From positions 1-64,000 of the forward strand of contig NZ_JANQCD010000026.1 in assembly GCF_026672275.1 (NCBI RefSeq): a stretch of DNA of 64,000 bases, given 5' to 3'. This document shows positions 1 through 8,165 of the stretch, one piece after another. The stretch's first letter is position 1. The number at the start of each line of letters is the position of its first letter. The notes under the pieces were generated by a model. It worked only from the letters and a program-made list of their open reading frames with translations. It searched no databases and was not told where the DNA came from. The translations under genes and the position numbers were made by a program. The DNA is from Marinifilum sp. D737 (GTDB lineage Bacteria; Bacteroidota; Bacteroidia; Bacteroidales; Marinifilaceae).

Positions 1-460
1 TCTAGTTTAGTCATCCCGTGACAAAATCAAAAATTCAAAGGGTGACTAATAAGCATCTTGTAAATTAGTCACCCCTTGACTGGTACATCTTCTAGGTTAG
101 CCATCCCGTGACAAAATCAAAAAGTCAAAGGGTGACTAATAAGCATCTTGTAAATTAATCACCCCTTGACTGGTACATCTTCTAGGTTAGCCATCCCGTG
201 ACAAAATCAAAAAGTCAAAGGGTGACTATTAAGCATCTTGTAAATTAGTCACCCCTTGACTGGTATTTAGATCTTTTAGATTAGTCATCCCATGACAAAA
301 TCCCTAAAAGTCAAAGGGTGACTAATAAGCATCTTGCAAATCAGTCACCCCTTGACTGGTATTTAGATCTTTTAGATTAGTCATCCCATGACAAAATCCC
401 TAAAAGTCAAAGGGTGACTATTAAGCATCTTGCAAATCAGTCACCCCTTGACTGGTAAAA
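1..460. repeat. Tandem array of five 90-96 bp hairpin units
   Basis: Five head-to-tail units start near 1, 91, 181, 275 and 371. The first three are 90-94 bp and nearly identical; the last two share extra bases (about 96 bp). Each unit holds three copies of one ~16 bp element related to TTAGTCACCCCTTGAC. In unit 1 these lie at 7-22 (direct), 34-50 (inverted) and 64-80 (direct). The second and third form a stem of about 17 bp with a 13 nt loop and one mismatch. The last element lies inside the 3' end of the ATP-grasp gene, whose TGA stop is formed by repeat sequence. The array begins at or before the window edge, so its full length is unknown. There are no unique spacers as in CRISPR. Confidence 0.93.
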
Positions 461-1513
461 TATTCTTGCAATTCCTTTTGCAATTTCTGGCAATGGATCT
501 TTTACAATGTATTGCCAGGATGAGGTTTTAAGTACAGAGAAACTTTTGCTTTGCAGAGCTGCTTTGGCCAGGTAAAATTTGGTTTTTTGGTATCCTTCAA
601 AACTAATTTCTTTATGATGTGCCCGGGAAATCATTAAACCTGGAAAATTAACTCCGGCATACAATGAACCTATCAATGTACTCCACATTCTTGGATTGAA
701 ATCAATAAGCAAATAGGAATCTGTTTCCTTTCGGTAAATAAAATCCAAATGAGCAATCCCACTCCAATTAAGTTGCTTGACTATGGCCTTGGTTGCATCC
801 AATAGTTTTTGATCTTCCAGGAATTCTATCCCTGTAGCAAAAGAGTAGGCTTCGCGTACCAAACCCTTTTGGATGGTATAGGCTAGAATTTCACCATTTT
901 CAGCAAGTAAACTGATATCAATATCTTCTCCGTTCAACTTTTCCTGAATCACATAGTCATCTGCTTTAAAATCAATATTGCTGATTTTTTCTTCGTATTC
1001 TTCTCTCGACTTACATTCCATAATTCTGTTCTCCTCGAAATCAGTTCTAGGTTTAAGAAGTAATGGAAAATTAAACTGCTGAATATTGTCGCCTGATATT
1101 TCTTTAGTTTTAGGACTTGGAAAAGAATTGTTTACTAAAAACTCTGCAAGAAAAAACTTATTGGTAACGGTAGCAAATGTACTTTGGGTAGGCATTGGTG
1201 GAAAAACCGAACCATTAAATAGCCTTCTGTACTTTGTTATAAATTGATAGTTAGAGAACTTAACAGGTAGAATCATATTAATATCCCATTTCTTTTCCAA
1301 AGCACTTATTTCTTGAATGATCTCTTTTGGATCCGAAGACTTTAGATATTGATATTTGGTTACATATCTCGAATAGGGAATGGTATTGAAATAAGTTTTC
1401 TTTTCGGGAGAAACCACAAAGATATTAACAGCCTGTTCATAACTCAGGCAGCGAATGGTGTCCAATAAATATGGGCCTCCATAATCATCTATTAGTAGTA
1501 CGTTGGTGGTCAT
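437..1513 (-). CDS. ATP-grasp domain protein
   Basis: A 358-residue ATP-grasp enzyme of the carbamoyl-phosphate-synthase/D-Ala ligase-like superfamily. Such enzymes join a carboxylate to an amine or thiol through an acyl-phosphate; the substrate here cannot be read. The N-terminus (MTTNVLLIDDYGG) looks like the pre-ATP-grasp Rossmann-type domain. The central part has FPLLLKPR (ATP-binding lysine) and QEKLNGEDIDIS, and the C-terminal part has HLDFIYR and LLIDFNPRMW, the usual metal-binding 'E/D-x-N-P-R' site with Asp for Glu. An upstream ATG at 1552 is in frame, but MTTNV at 1513 directly begins the conserved fold and was chosen. The last six codons lie in the tandem repeat array. The gene stands about 90 bp downstream of plsY. 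Confidence 0.82.
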   Translation of the reverse strand: MTTNVLLIDDYGGPYLLDTIRCLSYEQAVNIFVVSPEKKTYFNTIPYSRYVTKYQYLKSSDPKEIIQEISALEKKWDINMILPVKFSNYQFITKYRRLFNGSVFPPMPTQSTFATVTNKFFLAEFLVNNSFPSPKTKEISGDNIQQFNFPLLLKPRTDFEENRIMECKSREEYEEKISNIDFKADDYVIQEKLNGEDIDISLLAENGEILAYTIQKGLVREAYSFATGIEFLEDQKLLDATKAIVKQLNWSGIAHLDFIYRKETDSYLLIDFNPRMWSTLIGSLYAGVNFPGLMISRAHHKEISFEGYQKTKFYLAKAALQSKSFSVLKTSSWQYIVKDPLPEIAKGIARIFYQSRGD

Positions 1514-1601
1514 CCTATGAGTTAAGGTAGTAAATATCACAGAAAACTGCAACGTTCAATGTAAAATAAAAGATGTGTAGATCCTAAATTGAGGAGTGAT
1601 C

Positions 1602-2204
1602 TCAACTCAACTCGGTTCCTTTAAAAAGTCGTTTGATATTTGCAGTATGTCTTATAAATATGAATAGGGAACAAGTCAATAAATAAAGGATTATATTTTG
1701 ATCGTGTCCCAGAAAGTAGGCCGAAAGAGGAAGGCAAACCGCAATTGCCAATGAGCCTAGGGAAACAAACTTAAAGCCTTTTTTCACAATAAAATAAACT
1801 GCTACCGAGATGAAAACAGATATGGGTGCGATTAGAACTGAAGCCCCCAGAGTCGTATTAACACCCTTTCCGCCCTTAAACTTTAGAAGAAAACTAAAAT
1901 TGTGACCAAGTATTGCAGCCAGTGCTACAAAGTAAATTAGCGAAGGGGAAATTGTGAGGAATTGATATTCTTGGATGAGAAGGACAAAGAAGACAGGCAA
2001 TAATCCCTTGACCATATCGGTAATTTGTGTGTATATCGAAATTTTGCTGCCTGCGATTCTTTTTACATTGGTAGAACCAATGTTGCCACTCCCGAAATTA
2101 CGAATGTCTTTTCCGGTTGAGATTTTGGTATAGACATATCCTGCAGGGAAAGATCCAAGCATATAAGCTGTCAGAATTAGTAAGTAGTCCCAAAAGAATG
2201 TCAT
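1602..2204 (-). CDS. plsY: Glycerol-3-phosphate acyltransferase PlsY
   Basis: Transfers an acyl group from acyl-phosphate to glycerol-3-phosphate, the first step of phospholipid synthesis in the PlsX/PlsY pathway; integral inner-membrane enzyme. It has 200 residues with about five hydrophobic segments. The three family motifs are visible: LGSFPAGY with GSGNIGSTNVKR (motif 1), GHNFSFLLKFKGGKGVNT (motif 2) and a more diverged motif 3 near LFIFIRHTANIKR. Its ATG overlaps the TGA of the upstream peroxiredoxin gene as ATGA (2201-2204), so the two are probably translationally coupled. Length is normal for the family. Confidence 0.95.
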   Translation of the reverse strand: MTFFWDYLLILTAYMLGSFPAGYVYTKISTGKDIRNFGSGNIGSTNVKRIAGSKISIYTQITDMVKGLLPVFFVLLIQEYQFLTISPSLIYFVALAAILGHNFSFLLKFKGGKGVNTTLGASVLIAPISVFISVAVYFIVKKGFKFVSLGSLAIAVCLPLSAYFLGHDQNIILYLLTCSLFIFIRHTANIKRLFKGTELS

Positions 2205-2776
2205 TCAAGTTGTTTTAAAATGTTTTTGGCCTGATCAATGTGCTCCGTAGCTCGAAACTGTGAATTAAAGATATGAACAATTTTCCCCGATCGGTCAACA
2301 ACATAGGTAACTCTTCCCGGTAAAAGGCCAAAAAAGTTGGTGGGTACCCCAAATTGTTTGCGAACCGTATTGTTTACATCGCACAGAAGGTTGAAGTTCA
2401 GCTTGTGTTTTTCTGCAAACTCCTTATGACTGCTAACCGATTGACCACTGATGCCAAAAACTTCTGCGTTTAAATCATTAAAATCTTCGTACTGATCACG
2501 AAAACTACATGCCTGCTTTGTACAGCCTGGCGTATCATCTTTTGGGTAGAAATAGATTACCAGATTTTGCTTTCCAATAAAATTCTTGATATTGATGAGT
2601 TCTCCATCCTGGTTTTGAAGTTGAAAAACCGGAATTTGATCACCTACCTGTAATTCTTTTGATTTGTCTGCCATTGCCGAAAAAGGAAAAATAATTGTGA
2701 GTATTAAAATTAATGTCTTTATGTGCAGATCCCAAAGAAATTGGTTGGAATGATTTTGTATTGCTTTTTGTAACAT
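2201..2776 (-). CDS. Exported Bcp/PrxQ-type peroxiredoxin
   Basis: A thiol peroxidase of the AhpC/TSA superfamily, Bcp (PrxQ) group, which reduces peroxides with thioredoxin-like partners. The peroxidatic cysteine is in YPKDDTPGCTKQAC and the resolving cysteine follows five residues later, as in E. coli Bcp. Unlike the usual cytoplasmic Bcp (about 150 residues), this copy has an N-terminal hydrophobic segment (LILILTIIFPFSAMA), so it is probably secreted or membrane-anchored in the periplasm. A longer frame opens at 2833 but would overlap the upstream DUF1295 gene; the ATG at 2776 leaves a 16 bp gap and places the signal sequence near the N-terminus. It overlaps plsY by 4 bp. Confidence 0.88.
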   Translation of the reverse strand: MLQKAIQNHSNQFLWDLHIKTLILILTIIFPFSAMADKSKELQVGDQIPVFQLQNQDGELINIKNFIGKQNLVIYFYPKDDTPGCTKQACSFRDQYEDFNDLNAEVFGISGQSVSSHKEFAEKHKLNFNLLCDVNNTVRKQFGVPTNFFGLLPGRVTYVVDRSGKIVHIFNSQFRATEHIDQAKNILKQLE

Positions 2777-2792
2777 GATAAGGCCATTTGAT

Positions 2793-3575
2793 TTATTGCA
2801 CTTGCTTTTTAGGAAACCATGGGAAAAAGGCACTGGTTCTCTCTACATAATCCTTGTATGCAGGTTTATCGCTTGTAAGTGTTCTTTCCAACATGGCAAC
2901 ACCCGATATTTTAATGATGAGGTAAGTCATTAACAAGGAACCTAAAACAAACCAGTATTGTTGGGCTGCAATGGCAAATAGCGCATAACTCCACCACACA
3001 GCTGCATCACCAAAATAATTGGGATGCCTGGTATATTTCCAGAAACCTGATGAGAGCACTTCATTCTTGTTTTTTCTTTGTTTTCTAAATTTGGTCAATT
3101 GGTAATCACCACCTGCTTCGAAACTGATTCCGATAATCCAGACTGCCATAGCCACAAAATCAAACACATTTAAAGGAGTATTTTCTTCTGCAATATAAAC
3201 ACCAAACAAAGGAGAGGCAATCATTAACATTAATACTCCCTGTAAAAGGAAAACCTGGAAATAACTAAACCACCAATAGCGGTGTTCCCCGTAATCTTTC
3301 CTGAATTTTTGATATCTGAAATCTTCGGGTTTGCCTACGTTCCGAATGAATAAATGGATGGTGAGGCGCAATCCCCAAATGGAAACCAAAACAAATAAAA
3401 TGATTTGGCGCAGAAACAATTTATCGGCTGTAAAAAACAGGTAAGTTCCGATTACAACAAAACCAAATCCCCAGAAAATATCTACGATACTGGCATTTTT
3501 AATGTATACACTATACATCCATAGTAATGTTACCAATACGATAATTAGGATGCTTGCATTGAGATATAAAACCAT
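2793..3575 (-). CDS. DUF1295 membrane protein, steroid 5-alpha-reductase-like
   Basis: A 260-residue polytopic membrane protein with six to seven hydrophobic segments. The C-terminal block SGFWKYTRHPNYFGDAAVWW matches the RHPNYFGE signature of the DUF1295/steroid 5-alpha-reductase and isoprenylcysteine methyltransferase-like fold, which binds a nucleotide cofactor near this motif. DUF1295 members are presumed NADPH-dependent reductases of lipid-like substrates, but no substrate can be assigned from sequence. It is first in a tight minus-strand run with the exported peroxiredoxin and plsY (16 bp gap, then ATGA overlap), which hints at a membrane-lipid or envelope redox role. Confidence 0.87.
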   Translation of the reverse strand: MVLYLNASILIIVLVTLLWMYSVYIKNASIVDIFWGFGFVVIGTYLFFTADKLFLRQIILFVLVSIWGLRLTIHLFIRNVGKPEDFRYQKFRKDYGEHRYWWFSYFQVFLLQGVLMLMIASPLFGVYIAEENTPLNVFDFVAMAVWIIGISFEAGGDYQLTKFRKQRKNKNEVLSSGFWKYTRHPNYFGDAAVWWSYALFAIAAQQYWFVLGSLLMTYLIIKISGVAMLERTLTSDKPAYKDYVERTSAFFPWFPKKQVQ

Positions 3576-3706
3576 AATTTTAAGCTAATTGTTCATGTGT
3601 AAAACAATTTGGTAATAAAAAATGTTCTATTCCATTTTCTGAATTTTCAATACAATAAGGTTTTGATATCCTCACTCCGAATGAGATGATCAGGGCAAGG
3701 GGAGAT

Positions 3707-5491
3707 CTATTCGAATTGAAGGGCAACAGCAACAGTTCCTTCTCCTGCATTCATCCCAATAACTGGCGAAATGTTGATCACTTCAATCGGAGCTTTGCCC
3801 AAGAGATCATTCAAACGGTCGCCGTATTTTTTGGCCACCTCATGACTGTTGGCGTGCAGAATGATATAGTTCCAGATTTTTTGATCTTTCTTCAGATTCA
3901 GAACATGCTTAATGACTTTATTGATATTGGCTTTCTGACCAATGGCTTGTCCAAATAATTTAGATTCTCCCAATTCGTTGAGTGATACAATTGGATTAAT
4001 TCTTAGAAACATTGCAAGTTTTCCCACTGCAGGAGGAACACGACCTCCTTTAATCATGGCAGTTAAGTTTTTTACACTCACAAATATCTTGGTTTTATTC
4101 AACCACGAATCTAGCTGGGAAAGAATTGTTTCCATGTTTTCTCCTTGCTCAATCGCTTTCGCGATACGCAAAACTGCCAGACCTAATCCACCAGATACAT
4201 TACGAGAATTGATAACATGTATGGGAATGTTGAGTTCTTTTTGTACCCTTTCGGCTGCTTTTTGAGCACTGCGGAAGGTACCACTGAATTTCTCAGACAA
4301 ATGAATGGAGATGATGGCATCATAGTTTTGAGCCATCTGGGAATAGGTGTTTACAAAAGTATATTCATTAATTTGAGAGGTTGTAGGAAAGTGTTCCGAT
4401 TTATCTAAAAGCTCATAAAACTCTCTGGCTTTAAGGGTTACCCCATCGAGATATTGACTGTCGCCAAAAGAGAGATGCAAAGGCATTACATTCACCTGGT
4501 AAGAATCGATGATTTCCTGAGGCAGATCGCAGGTTGAATCGCTTACAATCCCAATTTTCCATTTTTGATTTTTGCTGATTTCACTCTGCCTTAGCATATC
4601 GTCAACCTTTGGAGAATTGATGATGGCAAAGTTTTCCAATTGATGAAAAAGTTCCGATGGATTGTTGGTATGTACATGAACTCTGCAAGAGGTTTTTCCT
4701 CCATTTATCACTACAGAATCGCCATTTTTATTTAAAATCTCTTTGATTTCTTTTAAGGAAATAGACGGTTCTTTAAGAATGGCTTCAGTGCAATATCGAT
4801 AATTGATATCTTCCAAATGATCAATGACAGCATTGGCAGAAGGAATGAAATTAGGCGACTTTATTCTATCGATAATGCCATGATTCACAAAATCCATAAC
4901 ACCCTCAATAAATACCACAAAACCTTTTGCTCCTGCATCTACAATGTTGTGCTTTTTTAAAACTGCCAGCTGATCGGTAGTTCTTTTAAGCGATGTTTCC
5001 AGTACTTGCATGGATTCATTCAGAACTTGTTTGAACTCTTCCAGTTGCTTTCGTTTCGAATAGAGAAATTCCGACCAGTCTTTAATTACCGTGAGCATGG
5101 TTCCTTCAACTGGTGTACCTATCGATTCATAGATGTATGGAATAGAAGATTGAACACTTTCGACAAATTCTAAGAAGCTGATGCTCTTTTTCTCTGATGT
5201 TTCACTGCTTAATCCGTACAGGAACTGGGCCATGATGATTCCTGAATTCCCTCTTGCGCCTACCTGTGCTGCTTCTGCAATCTGATCGACCATGAATTTG
5301 TAGGATACATTGGGCGAAATCCGATCCATTACCGATCGCATGGTAGATGCCATATTGCTGCCTGTATCCTTATCGGCAACAGGATAAACATTAATACGAT
5401 TCAGCTCATTTAAGTTTTTTATCAACTTATTGGCGCCCGCAAGAAAAGCGAAGTAGAGGTAACGACCATCGATATTTTGCATGGGATTCAT
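3707..5491 (-). CDS. DAK2-DegV fusion, fatty acid kinase-like (FakA N-terminal part + FakB)
   Basis: A 594-residue fusion. Residues ~1-200 form a DhaL/DAK2-type kinase domain (NVYPVADKDTGSNMAST is the Mg-ATP site; GARGNSGIIMAQFL follows). Residues ~210-310 match the FakA middle region (YRYCTEAIL, GDSVVINGGKTSCRVHVHT). Residues ~315-594 are a complete DegV fold (VSDSTCDLPQEII, TSQINEYTF, SEKFSGTFRSA, NSRNVSGGLGL). In Firmicutes the kinase FakA and the fatty-acid-binding FakB are separate proteins that together make acyl-phosphate for PlsX/PlsY; here they are one chain, upstream of a plsY on the same strand. That link to lipid synthesis is inference. Start M1 at 5491; M4 (5482) is an alternative. 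Confidence 0.88.
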   Translation of the reverse strand: MNPMQNIDGRYLYFAFLAGANKLIKNLNELNRINVYPVADKDTGSNMASTMRSVMDRISPNVSYKFMVDQIAEAAQVGARGNSGIIMAQFLYGLSSETSEKKSISFLEFVESVQSSIPYIYESIGTPVEGTMLTVIKDWSEFLYSKRKQLEEFKQVLNESMQVLETSLKRTTDQLAVLKKHNIVDAGAKGFVVFIEGVMDFVNHGIIDRIKSPNFIPSANAVIDHLEDINYRYCTEAILKEPSISLKEIKEILNKNGDSVVINGGKTSCRVHVHTNNPSELFHQLENFAIINSPKVDDMLRQSEISKNQKWKIGIVSDSTCDLPQEIIDSYQVNVMPLHLSFGDSQYLDGVTLKAREFYELLDKSEHFPTTSQINEYTFVNTYSQMAQNYDAIISIHLSEKFSGTFRSAQKAAERVQKELNIPIHVINSRNVSGGLGLAVLRIAKAIEQGENMETILSQLDSWLNKTKIFVSVKNLTAMIKGGRVPPAVGKLAMFLRINPIVSLNELGESKLFGQAIGQKANINKVIKHVLNLKKDQKIWNYIILHANSHEVAKKYGDRLNDLLGKAPIEVINISPVIGMNAGEGTVAVALQFE

Positions 5492-5680
5492 ATATGATTC
5501 TTAAGATTGACTTTAAGGTACTTATATTATTGCATTTTGAAAAATACTTGGCTATAAACAATTGTATCGACCGAAAAGTTTAATATCGAATTAACAAGCT
5601 AATTACCTTTTGATACATTAGTTTGCACAAGTCGGTTTATTATTTCTTACAACACCATAGGTATGGATCAGGTGTCATTT

Positions 5681-5758
5681 TTCGTCGAGAGATATTACAA
5701 TCTTCGACGAAGAGTGTAATATTTCTCGACGAAAAAATTATGAATCTTCGACGAAGAT
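5681..5758. repeat. Nested palindrome cluster based on TCTTCGACGAAGA
   Basis: Arms at 5681-5699 and 5715-5733 are inverted copies of 19 bp with one mismatch (TTCGTCGAGA...). Their 15 nt loop is itself a small palindrome, TCTTCGACGAAGA. A second palindrome, ATCTTCGACGAAGAT, follows at 5744-5758. No long T-run adjoins, so it does not look like a simple terminator; a protein-binding site or mobile hairpin repeat is possible. Confidence 0.8.
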
Positions 5759-5871
5759 TATACTGTAAACATTACGATTCCTTTACCTGTTCAAGTGAAT
5801 GAGCTTTGTTATGTGATGTTTGTCACAAGGGCAAACTCATATTCGATCGAAATCGCAAATGCAAGTGAGTA

Positions 5872-5913
5872 GACAAAAAGAAAGGAAGCTGTCACTAACA
5901 GACAGATTCCTTT
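5872..5913 (-). terminator. Terminator of the DUF2157/GDYXXLXY operon
   Basis: Arms 5881-5893 (AAAGGAAGCTGTC) and 5901-5913 pair over 13 bp with one mismatch and a 7 nt loop. Read on the minus strand, the hairpin runs into a T-rich stretch (TTTCTTTTTG), about 50 bp past the stop of the GDYXXLXY gene. Confidence 0.7.
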
Positions 5914-5963
5914 AGAGCTAATGCAAAATTTAATGCTTATGCGATTTTAAAAAAATAGGATGC

Positions 5964-6554
5964 TTATTTGAAGTCATTTACCGCATCTTTTATAGAAGTA
6001 TCGTTTATCATTACATCTTTAAGAGTTGCTTTCCCGTTTTTTAGGTTTACCAATGCATAAGTTGAAGTTTTGCTGTCTGTTGTTGATTTTCGATAAAGAT
6101 CTTCAGCTGCTTTGGCTTTTGTTTCCTCCATATAGTACCTGTTAAAAGGATACTGAATTGTAATTTCTTTATCAATGATATGATTGAATTGGTCTTTATT
6201 TGTTTTTACATTTTGAATTTTGGCAGTCAGATAATGTTTCTCATTCGTAGGTTCTTTTAACAAAGCGCGCAGGGGACTTGCAAATCCTTCTTTATTTTCT
6301 GTAATGACGACAAACACGTCCTGTCCTTTTGCCCAATCCTCGTAACTGCTCACTCTAATTGCATTTTCTTTAAATCGGAGAGCAATGTACTTTCCCCTAA
6401 AAGGATCATTTGGATCGACAGGAGCCGTTTGAAATTTAAATTCTTTTCCATGAGAAAGGATTTGCTCCTGATCGTAAATGCTTTTAACAGGAATACTTAA
6501 TTGAATTAGTGCAATTACAATGAATATTGGGAATATGATTTTCTTATGCATCAT
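5964..6554 (-). CDS. GDYXXLXY domain protein
   Basis: A 196-residue membrane-anchored protein with one N-terminal hydrophobic segment (IIFPIFIVIALIQLSIPV). The family motif appears as DPFRGKYIALRF, preceded by QTAPVDPNDPFRG, typical of this family of unknown function. Family members are usually encoded beside DUF2157 proteins, as here (11 bp overlap with the upstream gene), so the two products probably act together in the membrane. The second ATG, 3 bp in, is an equally good start. Confidence 0.87.
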   Translation of the reverse strand: MMHKKIIFPIFIVIALIQLSIPVKSIYDQEQILSHGKEFKFQTAPVDPNDPFRGKYIALRFKENAIRVSSYEDWAKGQDVFVVITENKEGFASPLRALLKEPTNEKHYLTAKIQNVKTNKDQFNHIIDKEITIQYPFNRYYMEETKAKAAEDLYRKSTTDSKTSTYALVNLKNGKATLKDVMINDTSIKDAVNDFK

Positions 6555-7818
6555 GTTTTTTCATCTTTAATAATTGATAATTGGCAATAAAGAATCCAAA
6601 TCCAATTGAAAGGAAAAGAATGCCTCTCACTACAAAACTTAAATCGGTATCGAAAAATCGGCAGATGATCAAAGCTGTAATAATGAGCAAACCAGAGTTC
6701 ATTGACTTTAAATTTCTTTGTATGGTTCCCGAAATAATAGTTATTAAACCTAGTGCAAAAACAAGAATATTGACCAAGATAAATGCGAAAGAAGTATGAG
6801 AACTTAGCAAGAAAATCAGTATCAATACAAAAAATAATATCTCATTTGTTTTAAGCTTATTTTTCGCCCAGTTTTGGTAAGCAAGAAATATTGCAATTAT
6901 TGAAGTTATGAAAGTAGAATAAACTTCCGGAGCATATTGCAAACTGGCATTATCGTAAATTTCTCTCCTGATATCTACCCACATATCATCGAAACTTAAA
7001 ATAAGAAGGATTACAATACTGCCAATCCAACCAATTATTTTAAATCCATTGCTTATGGCGGATTTCCTGGTGTAAAAATCTTTGCTACCCACTAAAGTGA
7101 AAATGCCAAACAAACTCATGTAGGCTAAGAACATGATTTCTTCATGACTATCAGCGAAAGTGCCCAGGCAAATGGTAAGCGAAAGGGGAATCATCCAATT
7201 GTGAAAAGAAATGCTGTTGCTTTCAGGATTTTGCTTTTTCTGATTTAGGTAGAAAAATATAGTAGTACCTATAAATAGAATGTACCAATAAGGGATGGTT
7301 TCAGTATGCTCCCAATATCCTACATTTATTGCATAAAATGAACTTCCTGTTAAAAATAATAGGGATCCTATTGAAGAACTCATAACAAAAGGAATTGGAA
7401 GAAATAGAATCATCCAAATAAAAAGAAATGATCCAAGTTCTCCGGGAATATTATAGATCTGGCTAATGAGAGAAATGCAGGATCCCAGTGCAAAGAATAA
7501 AAAACTTACACTTGCTTCTCTCCAGGCTTGTGAATTTTTCTTCTTTAGGATAGTAAACCCGCAGGCTGCTTGTCCAATGATGAGAGGGAACAATGCCAAA
7601 CTTGTTTTTAGTGGTCTTGCAAAATTATCCCAATTGTGAGCAACAATTAAAATGATGCCCAATCCGATTAAAATTGCACCTAAAGTTCCAAAAATTACCA
7701 GAAGTTTGTTTGGGGATGCTTGCTTCTTTGAAGTGTAATAGAGAATAATGTCATCAGCTGTACTTTGCGAAATGACATTTGCTTCAACAAGCTTAGGTAT
7801 TTCTCTGAGAATACTCAT
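6544..7818 (-). CDS. DUF2157 polytopic membrane protein
   Basis: A 424-residue protein whose N-terminal ~40 residues (LVEANVISQSTADDIILYY) are a soluble helical DUF2157 head, followed by about twelve hydrophobic segments from LLVIFGTLGAILIGLGIILIVAHNW onward. The function of the family is unknown. A longer frame starts at 7854, but the ATG at 7818 fits the family N-terminus (MSILREIPKL) and leaves room for a candidate promoter at 7842-7849. It overlaps the downstream GDYXXLXY gene, its standard partner. Confidence 0.86.
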   Translation of the reverse strand: MSILREIPKLVEANVISQSTADDIILYYTSKKQASPNKLLVIFGTLGAILIGLGIILIVAHNWDNFARPLKTSLALFPLIIGQAACGFTILKKKNSQAWREASVSFLFFALGSCISLISQIYNIPGELGSFLFIWMILFLPIPFVMSSSIGSLLFLTGSSFYAINVGYWEHTETIPYWYILFIGTTIFFYLNQKKQNPESNSISFHNWMIPLSLTICLGTFADSHEEIMFLAYMSLFGIFTLVGSKDFYTRKSAISNGFKIIGWIGSIVILLILSFDDMWVDIRREIYDNASLQYAPEVYSTFITSIIAIFLAYQNWAKNKLKTNEILFFVLILIFLLSSHTSFAFILVNILVFALGLITIISGTIQRNLKSMNSGLLIITALIICRFFDTDLSFVVRGILFLSIGFGFFIANYQLLKMKKHDA

Positions 7819-7841
7819 AATTAATAGGATTGGATTTAAAA

Positions 7842-7849
7842 CAAATCTA
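7842..7849 (-). promoter_or_regulatory. Candidate -7 element for the DUF2157 operon
   Basis: On the minus strand the sequence reads TAGATTTG, matching the Bacteroidota -7 consensus TAnnTTTG, 23 bp before the chosen DUF2157 start. A TTG lies upstream, but the spacing is about 24 bp against the usual ~19, so support is partial. Confidence 0.4.
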
Positions 7850-7883
7850 ATCATATTATACTTTTAGTGAAAACAATTAATAA

Positions 7884-7929
7884 AAAACCGAAAATTGCGG
7901 TGCCCCTATGCTGTGCAATTTTCGGTTTT
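7884..7929 (-). terminator. Strong 15 bp hairpin, terminator on the minus strand
   Basis: Arms 7884-7898 (AAAACCGAAAATTGC) and 7915-7929 pair perfectly over 15 bp with a 16 nt loop. On the minus strand the hairpin ends in GGTTTTTTATTAATT, a good U-tract. It would end transcripts coming from the Tricorn-like gene, or a small RNA lying between. Confidence 0.75.
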
Positions 7930-8165
7930 ATTTTGTCTGTTCAATGTATAGAAGAGGAGGGAGGAACAGACTCTTCCAAGGTGAGTTTCCTTTGGAAGGG
8001 GGTGTATTTGTTGTTGTCCATTTAAAGCGAGGACAAAGCTCAAATCATTTGAGGTGAAATGAGAAGTATTGAGCTTTGCCTCTTATTTTTTGCAGACAAT
8101 TAAGATTTCCCGAAAGCACAAACCCTATGTGAGCCGTGCTTTTCGGGGTATCTTGACTACACAGA
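7930..8165. other. Stretch of consecutive hairpins, possible structured RNA
   Basis: No ORF is supported. Inverted repeats follow one another: 7935-7942/7964-7971 (GTCTGTTC), 7973-7981/7989-7998 (CTTCCAAGG, one bulge), and a compound stem 8029-8082 made of GAGG/CCTC, AAAGCTCAA/TTGAGCTTT and TCATTT/AAATGA. A last stem lies at 8109-8148 (CCCGAAAGCAC, one bulge). The compound stem is followed on the plus strand by TTATTTTTTG (8083-8092), a U-tract for a plus-strand RNA; the minus strand ends at the 7884-7929 hairpin. The coding strand cannot be decided by eye. Confidence 0.5.

Follow-up and report, generated by a model that had tools for sequence, protein, structure and literature searches.

The beginning of the window, the 64,000-nt stretch of Marinifilum sp. 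D737 DNA analysed here, raises the question of what kind of repeat has come to lie against the end of an ATP-grasp gene and to which genetic system it belongs. Positions 1–457 form a tandem array of five units of 90/96 bp (TRF score 667), with unit starts spaced 90, 90, 96 and 96 bp apart; because base 1 of the window is the end of contig C49 and falls inside the array, five is a lower bound. We consider it highly probable that this stretch is a tandemly expanded REP array of a REPtron, composed of a RAYT gene on a second contig and its cognate palindromes, inserted between the ATP-grasp gene and the convergent etfA in Marinifilum. The features, named according to that reading, are as follows.

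1–457, no strand: tandem REP array of five 90/96-bp units (the count is a lower bound)
33–81, plus strand: REP hairpin of unit 1
123–171, plus strand: REP hairpin of unit 2
213–261, plus strand: REP hairpin of unit 3 (folded against shuffles)
309–357, plus strand: REP hairpin of unit 4 (folded against shuffles)
405–453, plus strand: REP hairpin of unit 5, overlapping the ATP-grasp 3′ end (folded against shuffles)
7–22, plus strand: element 1, a solitary diverged arm, of unit 1 (arm match compared with shuffles)
97–112, plus strand: element 1 of unit 2 (arm match compared with shuffles)
187–202, plus strand: element 1 of unit 3 (arm match compared with shuffles)
281–296, plus strand: element 1 of unit 4 (arm match compared with shuffles)
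377–392, plus strand: element 1 of unit 5 (arm match compared with shuffles)
437–457, minus strand: final six codons and stop (YQSRGD*) of the ATP-grasp ORF, provided by the REP; left boundary of the insert
437–1552, minus strand: ATP-grasp gene with an apparently replaced 3′ end (Pfam ATPgrasp_Ter and ATP-grasp_3 above cut-off)
Contig C88:158–784 (locus L003/L101), outside the window: RAYT partner gene, a 208-aa ORF

Each unit holds a 16-bp element three times (direct, inverted, direct), an architecture that an earlier note on this DNA had recognised in all five units and that repeat and arm analysis confirmed. Element 1 stands alone, and elements 2 and 3 pair with each other to form a 49-nt hairpin with 15-nt arms (3′ arm AGTCACCCCTTGACT, ending in the TGACT type), a 19-nt loop and one A–C mismatch in the stem. 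Each arm also reads as an imperfect 5-5-5 palindrome (AGTCA-AGGGG-TGACT), and this explains why the earlier note took the 16-bp element as the unit. Element 1 (TTAGTCATCCCRTGAC, with the variant TTAGCCATCCCGTGAC in units 2–3) is a diverged copy of the arm, identical to it at 13–14 of 16 bases, and a 14/16 match was reached by none of 20,000 shuffles of one spacer. The hairpins are strong, as had been claimed: folding z-scores were −4 to −7 for the four stretches tested, and no shuffle folded equally well. Ordered drift between units 1–3 and units 4–5, also described beforehand, was borne out by two spacer types, one preceding hairpins 1–3 and the other preceding hairpins 4–5. A CRISPR was rejected, as the units repeat together with their spacers, and a search of window positions 1–8,000 against Rfam returned no family at gathering score.

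Extended leftwards, as the earlier note had advised, the array leaves contig C49 at base 1 and continues on contig C88, whose first 39 bases are the exact reverse complement of window 1–39. Further hairpins lie on C88 at 49, 768, 852 and 946, around the 208-aa ORF, and thus the same hairpin occurs on both sides of the RAYT. The 39-bp overlap and synteny together indicate that C88 probably adjoins C49. The C49 flank reads ATATTT|TACCAGTCAAGGGG on the minus strand and the C88 flank reads CCTTTGACT|AAAAAAAAGACCTGCC; the join is supported because flanks that are contiguous in a congener (G003) sit on either side of the block. Joined in this way, the block spans at least 1.41 kb (457 + 994 − 39). 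The spacer at C88:901–945 shares features with each of the two spacer types, consistent with an exchange of sequence between units.

Judged from its sequence and a predicted structure, the C88 ORF is a divergent RAYT, with an HUH motif and a single predicted catalytic tyrosine in a Y1 fold. Its best NCBIfam match was REP-associated tyrosine transposase (NF047646; E = 2e-12), with scores below the curated cut-offs (47.2 bits against 80 for NF047646, and 21.8 against 23 for Pfam Y1_Tnp). Escherichia coli TnpA_REP (4er8) was both the sole PDB sequence match (E = 0.005) and the best fold match of the AF2 model (E = 1.1e-6). Across 23 relatives, the HUH motif (NHFH), Tyr156 and Asn160 do not vary, and Tyr156 aligns with Tyr115 of 4er8; the Y motif is YIHQNP, and Phe stands at the Trp position. 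The genome holds one full-length intact copy of this gene, all remaining matches being at most 47% identical. Among these, a second homologue (L074/L098, C97:80969–81526; 47% identical) is broken by an in-frame TGA, and the palindromes on its flanks are of another family, GATACCCTCACT-AGG-AGTGAGAGCATC. A 181-aa RAYT of another group (L039, on C67), above the NF047646 cut-off, lies between two ~80-bp direct copies (AAAGGGCAAGCCCAAAGCCTGCCC...) at 1100–1170 and 1990–2070.

The same locus is empty, minimal or expanded in different members of the genus. In G003, the ATP-grasp gene runs via AAATAAAAAAGACCTGCC straight into the convergent etfA with nothing between them, and in G001 and G002 the ATP-grasp gene is followed by another gene and then by etfA, with no RAYT adjoining etfA. 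In Marinifilum breve JC075, the RAYT (90% identical) adjoins etfA and is bordered by a single hairpin on either side; tandem units are absent. The intervening gene of G001 and G002 (L092/L091) is absent from this position in G003 (L093) and in the window genome, and adjoins the RAYT in M. breve. A terminator-like hairpin (AAAAAAGACCTGCC...GGCAGGTCTTT) has been kept beside etfA and is intact on the far side of the block. Comparison among genomes documents that the block was inserted (or lost), that the element spread and that its tandem organisation varies. Array length, which the earlier note had proposed to compare among strains, ranges among congeners from the array of the window genome through the single hairpin per side of M. 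breve to none in G001–G003, and the stepwise expansion it suggested fits M. breve. The simplest reading of these sequences is that a smaller element expanded recently in the species of the window. The absence in G003 could reflect loss; we infer gain here instead, because the ATP-grasp C terminus is REP-encoded in the window genome and different in G001, G002 and G003.

That C terminus records the left edge of the insert. On the minus strand, window 437–457 reads TAC CAG TCA AGG GGT GAC TGA, encoding YQSRGD-stop, and so the last element does supply the final six codons and the stop of the ATP-grasp gene, as had been noticed. The homologue in G003 ends in IFK-stop, an end that, by sequence comparison, the insert appears to have replaced with YQSRGD-stop. 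Of the two directions once considered, that the array grew from or into coding sequence, the G003 gene end therefore speaks for growth into it and against growth from it. Under this scheme, the first REP would have replaced the ATP-grasp C terminus and stop, parting the gene from the terminator-like hairpin beside etfA, and the changed C terminus looks like a by-product of its arrival. Two further genes end inside the hairpin: the RAYT itself (YQSKGD-stop in the window genome, YQSRGD-stop in M. breve) and a gene on contig C50 (ELSVKG-stop). In total, a REP provides the stop codon of three genes in this genome, a simple way for elements of this kind to alter protein C termini.

The element is not confined to this locus; its occurrence here only was part of what the earlier note had set as refuting its reading. 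A model search of the genome, which that note had recommended, located about 26 hairpin sites on many contigs: 9 in the C49 and C88 blocks, 3 in an array on contigs C43 and C95, and 14 single copies. These are multiple dispersed, extragenic palindromic copies, as the term REP implies; each of the 14 single copies lies between genes or reaches only into the end of one, with a gene 3′ end on one or both sides (simple ORF scan, 90-aa minimum). We compared three single sites with congeners and found that presence varies at all three. The hairpin at C41:3455 is absent in G001, G002 and G003; in congeners, an unrelated stretch of ~28 bp occupies its place. At C50:24573, the hairpin is common to the window genome and G001 and absent in G003, and the C50 gene runs into it for its stop in both genomes that have it. 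The site at C86:69656 has one copy in the window genome, two tandem copies in G001, a half-element in G002 and no copy in G003 and G004. The empty sites revealed neither a rule for the target site nor a duplication of it. The second array, at the end of C43 (L015 1503–1640) and the start of C95 (L013 1–215), has at least three hairpins 113 bp apart; its spacer differs and holds another palindrome (ATTCGTAATCCGAACTGAAGTCGGAATACGAA), and it also coincides with a contig break, with a 78-bp end overlap. Hairpins occur without a close copy of the window RAYT in G001 (5 sites), G004 (2) and G009 (4), as if the repeats outlast the transposase or spread apart from it.

Within the window's own hairpin family, covariation is near nil (1 of 17 pairs), and the structural case therefore rests on relatives of the RAYT. 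We sampled 80 of these (47–90% identity, nearly all Bacteroidota), 72 with both flanks. Upstream and downstream flanks share a 12-mer or longer in half of the 72, compared with 7% of mismatched pairs, and a 14-mer or longer in 29, compared with 2.5%. When all occurrences of ACT-NNN-AGT up to 400 bp from a RAYT were tested for pairing, disregarding outer bases, the paired fraction was 0.60–0.87 at positions 4–15 from the loop, fell to 0.31 at position 16 and stayed about the same beyond; distant controls gave a weaker version of the same step after position 15. The motif GACT-N0-5-AGTC was 57-fold denser within 300 bp of a RAYT than beyond 900 bp. Near the RAYTs, 132 hairpins had at least 13 of 15 pairs, with a loop of exactly 3 nt in 104, and one was present at 54 of the 80 loci. 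The arm consensus among relatives is ANTSA-N5-TGACT. At 11 of the 15 pairs, both bases differ between families, in rows that were selected as perfect hairpins and so pair fully by selection; the ACT-NNN-AGT tip test is the fairer one.

In one relative, Plebeiobacterium marinum (L178), 17 loop bases of a hairpin are identical to those of the window hairpin (ATAAGCATCTTGCAAAT), and the arms are different yet complementary; from this alignment, the long loop looks homologous and the arms look to have changed together. Long-loop copies also fall within the span of the RAYT gene in L178 (3211 and 3244) and in a Marinifilaceae MAG (L203, 3177), resembling the in-gene REPs reported for subclass 2.4 (PMC6006769). 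We give an even chance to the broader proposal that this Bacteroidota RAYT clade owns a REP superfamily that is neither GTAG- nor CGTC-tagged, pairs two 15-bp arms matching ANTSA-N5-TGACT into a stem of fixed length, mostly closed by a 3-nt loop, and is recognised by its TGACT/AGTCA tip and stem length instead of a foot tetranucleotide, the Marinifilum family being a long-loop branch with a conserved loop and covarying arms. Neither the 15-3-15 rule nor the long-loop branch was found in the consulted passages of the REP/RAYT papers cited here, the supplements of which may hold an earlier description.

How the array is to be explained depends on which of these observations each account can accommodate. 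A series of bidirectional transcription terminators, kept for that function between the convergent ATP-grasp and etfA genes, would match the strong hairpins at this position, the gene 3′ ends beside all single copies and the reported action of REPs in termination (PMC6006769, PMC3733652). We nevertheless regard this option, one of those that the earlier note had raised, as very unlikely to be the primary nature of the array: by eye, none of the stems has a T-run of five or more immediately after it, a terminator scan of window 1–1,000 (which covers loops of 3–8 nt only) gave no hits, and the array is absent in congeners, with the terminator-like hairpin retained beside etfA. This account also leaves the RAYT unexplained. 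More improbable still is that array and RAYT are neighbours by chance, the array being a satellite grown by slippage and unrelated to the transposase. Both in the window genome and in M. breve, the RAYT has the same hairpin on either side; the arm type clusters around RAYT relatives, and dispersed hairpin copies lie on many contigs. In favour of chance are the near-identity of the units including their spacers, as slippage alone would yield, and the observation of element 1 only within the C49 and C88 blocks.

The least probable account, in which a DNA-bending or chromosome-organising host protein binds along the array, draws on the regular spacing and on the binding of proteobacterial REPs by IHF, DNA polymerase I and gyrase (PMC6006769), but the array is absent at the locus in G001–G003, M. 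breve has just a single hairpin on each side, the spacing of 90/96 bp here is 113 bp in the second array, and pairing has been kept through compensatory changes in relatives. A mobile hairpin repeat, among the options of the earlier note, is favoured because of the RAYT in the block, the empty site in G003, the dispersed copies and the variable presence at three sites, and the repeats very probably belong to the adjoining single-strand transposase gene. As a mobile hairpin repeat, the REP would be mobilised by the RAYT, which would recognise the hairpin as single-stranded DNA, cleave beside it and transfer it, thereby spreading single REPs; in vitro cleavage beside single-stranded REP has been reported for E. 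coli TnpA_REP (PMC8266576). Slippage, or recombination among the near-identical units, would then lengthen the tandem array.

Earlier work has described REPtrons, REPs and tandem REPIN clusters next to RAYT genes (PMC3116915, PMC6006769), and the Marinifilum system is of this known kind, in a poorly described Bacteroidota variant. Like the REPtron described for Pseudomonas fluorescens SBW25 (Bertels and Rainey 2011, PMC3116915), it places a RAYT beside clusters of its own palindromes, with tandem repeats that include flanking sequence and with dispersed intergenic copies; here too, units repeat with their spacers beside the RAYT, as in REPIN clusters. Unlike that system, it is found in Bacteroidota and has no GTAG foot, its repeat is a single hairpin, mostly of 15 bp and with a 19-nt loop, where SBW25 has two inverted GTAG REPs, so that the Marinifilum array lacks the REPIN form proper, and it occupies about 26 sites instead of hundreds (PMC3116915). 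The GTAG superfamily was rejected on the lack of a GT[AG]G foot within 8 nt on either side of all 17 dispersed copies. The CGTC superfamily (CGTC foot, 8–9-bp stem, 4–5-nt loop and no transposase gene) was rejected on the 15-nt arms, the 19-nt loop and the RAYT in the block.

Also among the closest described systems is TnpA_Y1 subclass 2.6 of Bacteroidetes, to which this RAYT may belong and for which ‘atypical secondary structures’ without GT[AG]G are reported (Quentin et al. 2018, PMC6006769). The two share the phylum, the YIH[QN]NP motif and flanking non-GTAG hairpins copied elsewhere in the genome; they differ in that the subclass table gives NH[LIV]H and WQ where the Marinifilum RAYT has NHFH and Phe at the Trp position, and in that the stems are strong in Marinifilum and described as weaker in the subclass. 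NHFH with Phe also occurs in a variant of subclass 2.1, for which the same study reports having found no REPs (PMC6006769). As in a TIRtron, a RAYT-like gene (TIRYT) is bordered by self-complementary repeat families (De Nocera et al. 2013, PMC3733652), and GGGGTGAC in the Marinifilum arm fits the TIR motif GGGGWSAS, a fit to the consensus only. Elements of the IS200/IS605 family (IS608, ISDra2) likewise combine a Y1 HUH fold, hairpins on both sides of the gene and an empty site. Membership of that family, whose insertion sequences are multicopy and near-identical with a Y-N3-Q motif, was rejected: Marinifilum has one intact RAYT copy, its hairpins spread without the gene, and its Y motif is YIHQNP, in contrast to Y[IV]ENQ.

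In the sources cited, knowledge of REPs and RAYTs comes chiefly from Proteobacteria, where the foot is GTAG, and those of Bacteroidota appear only as ‘atypical secondary structures’. Our data suggest a precise signature for the Bacteroidota repeats, 15 paired positions followed by background. The empty, minimal and expanded states of one locus within one genus make both the recognition rules and the growth of arrays testable.
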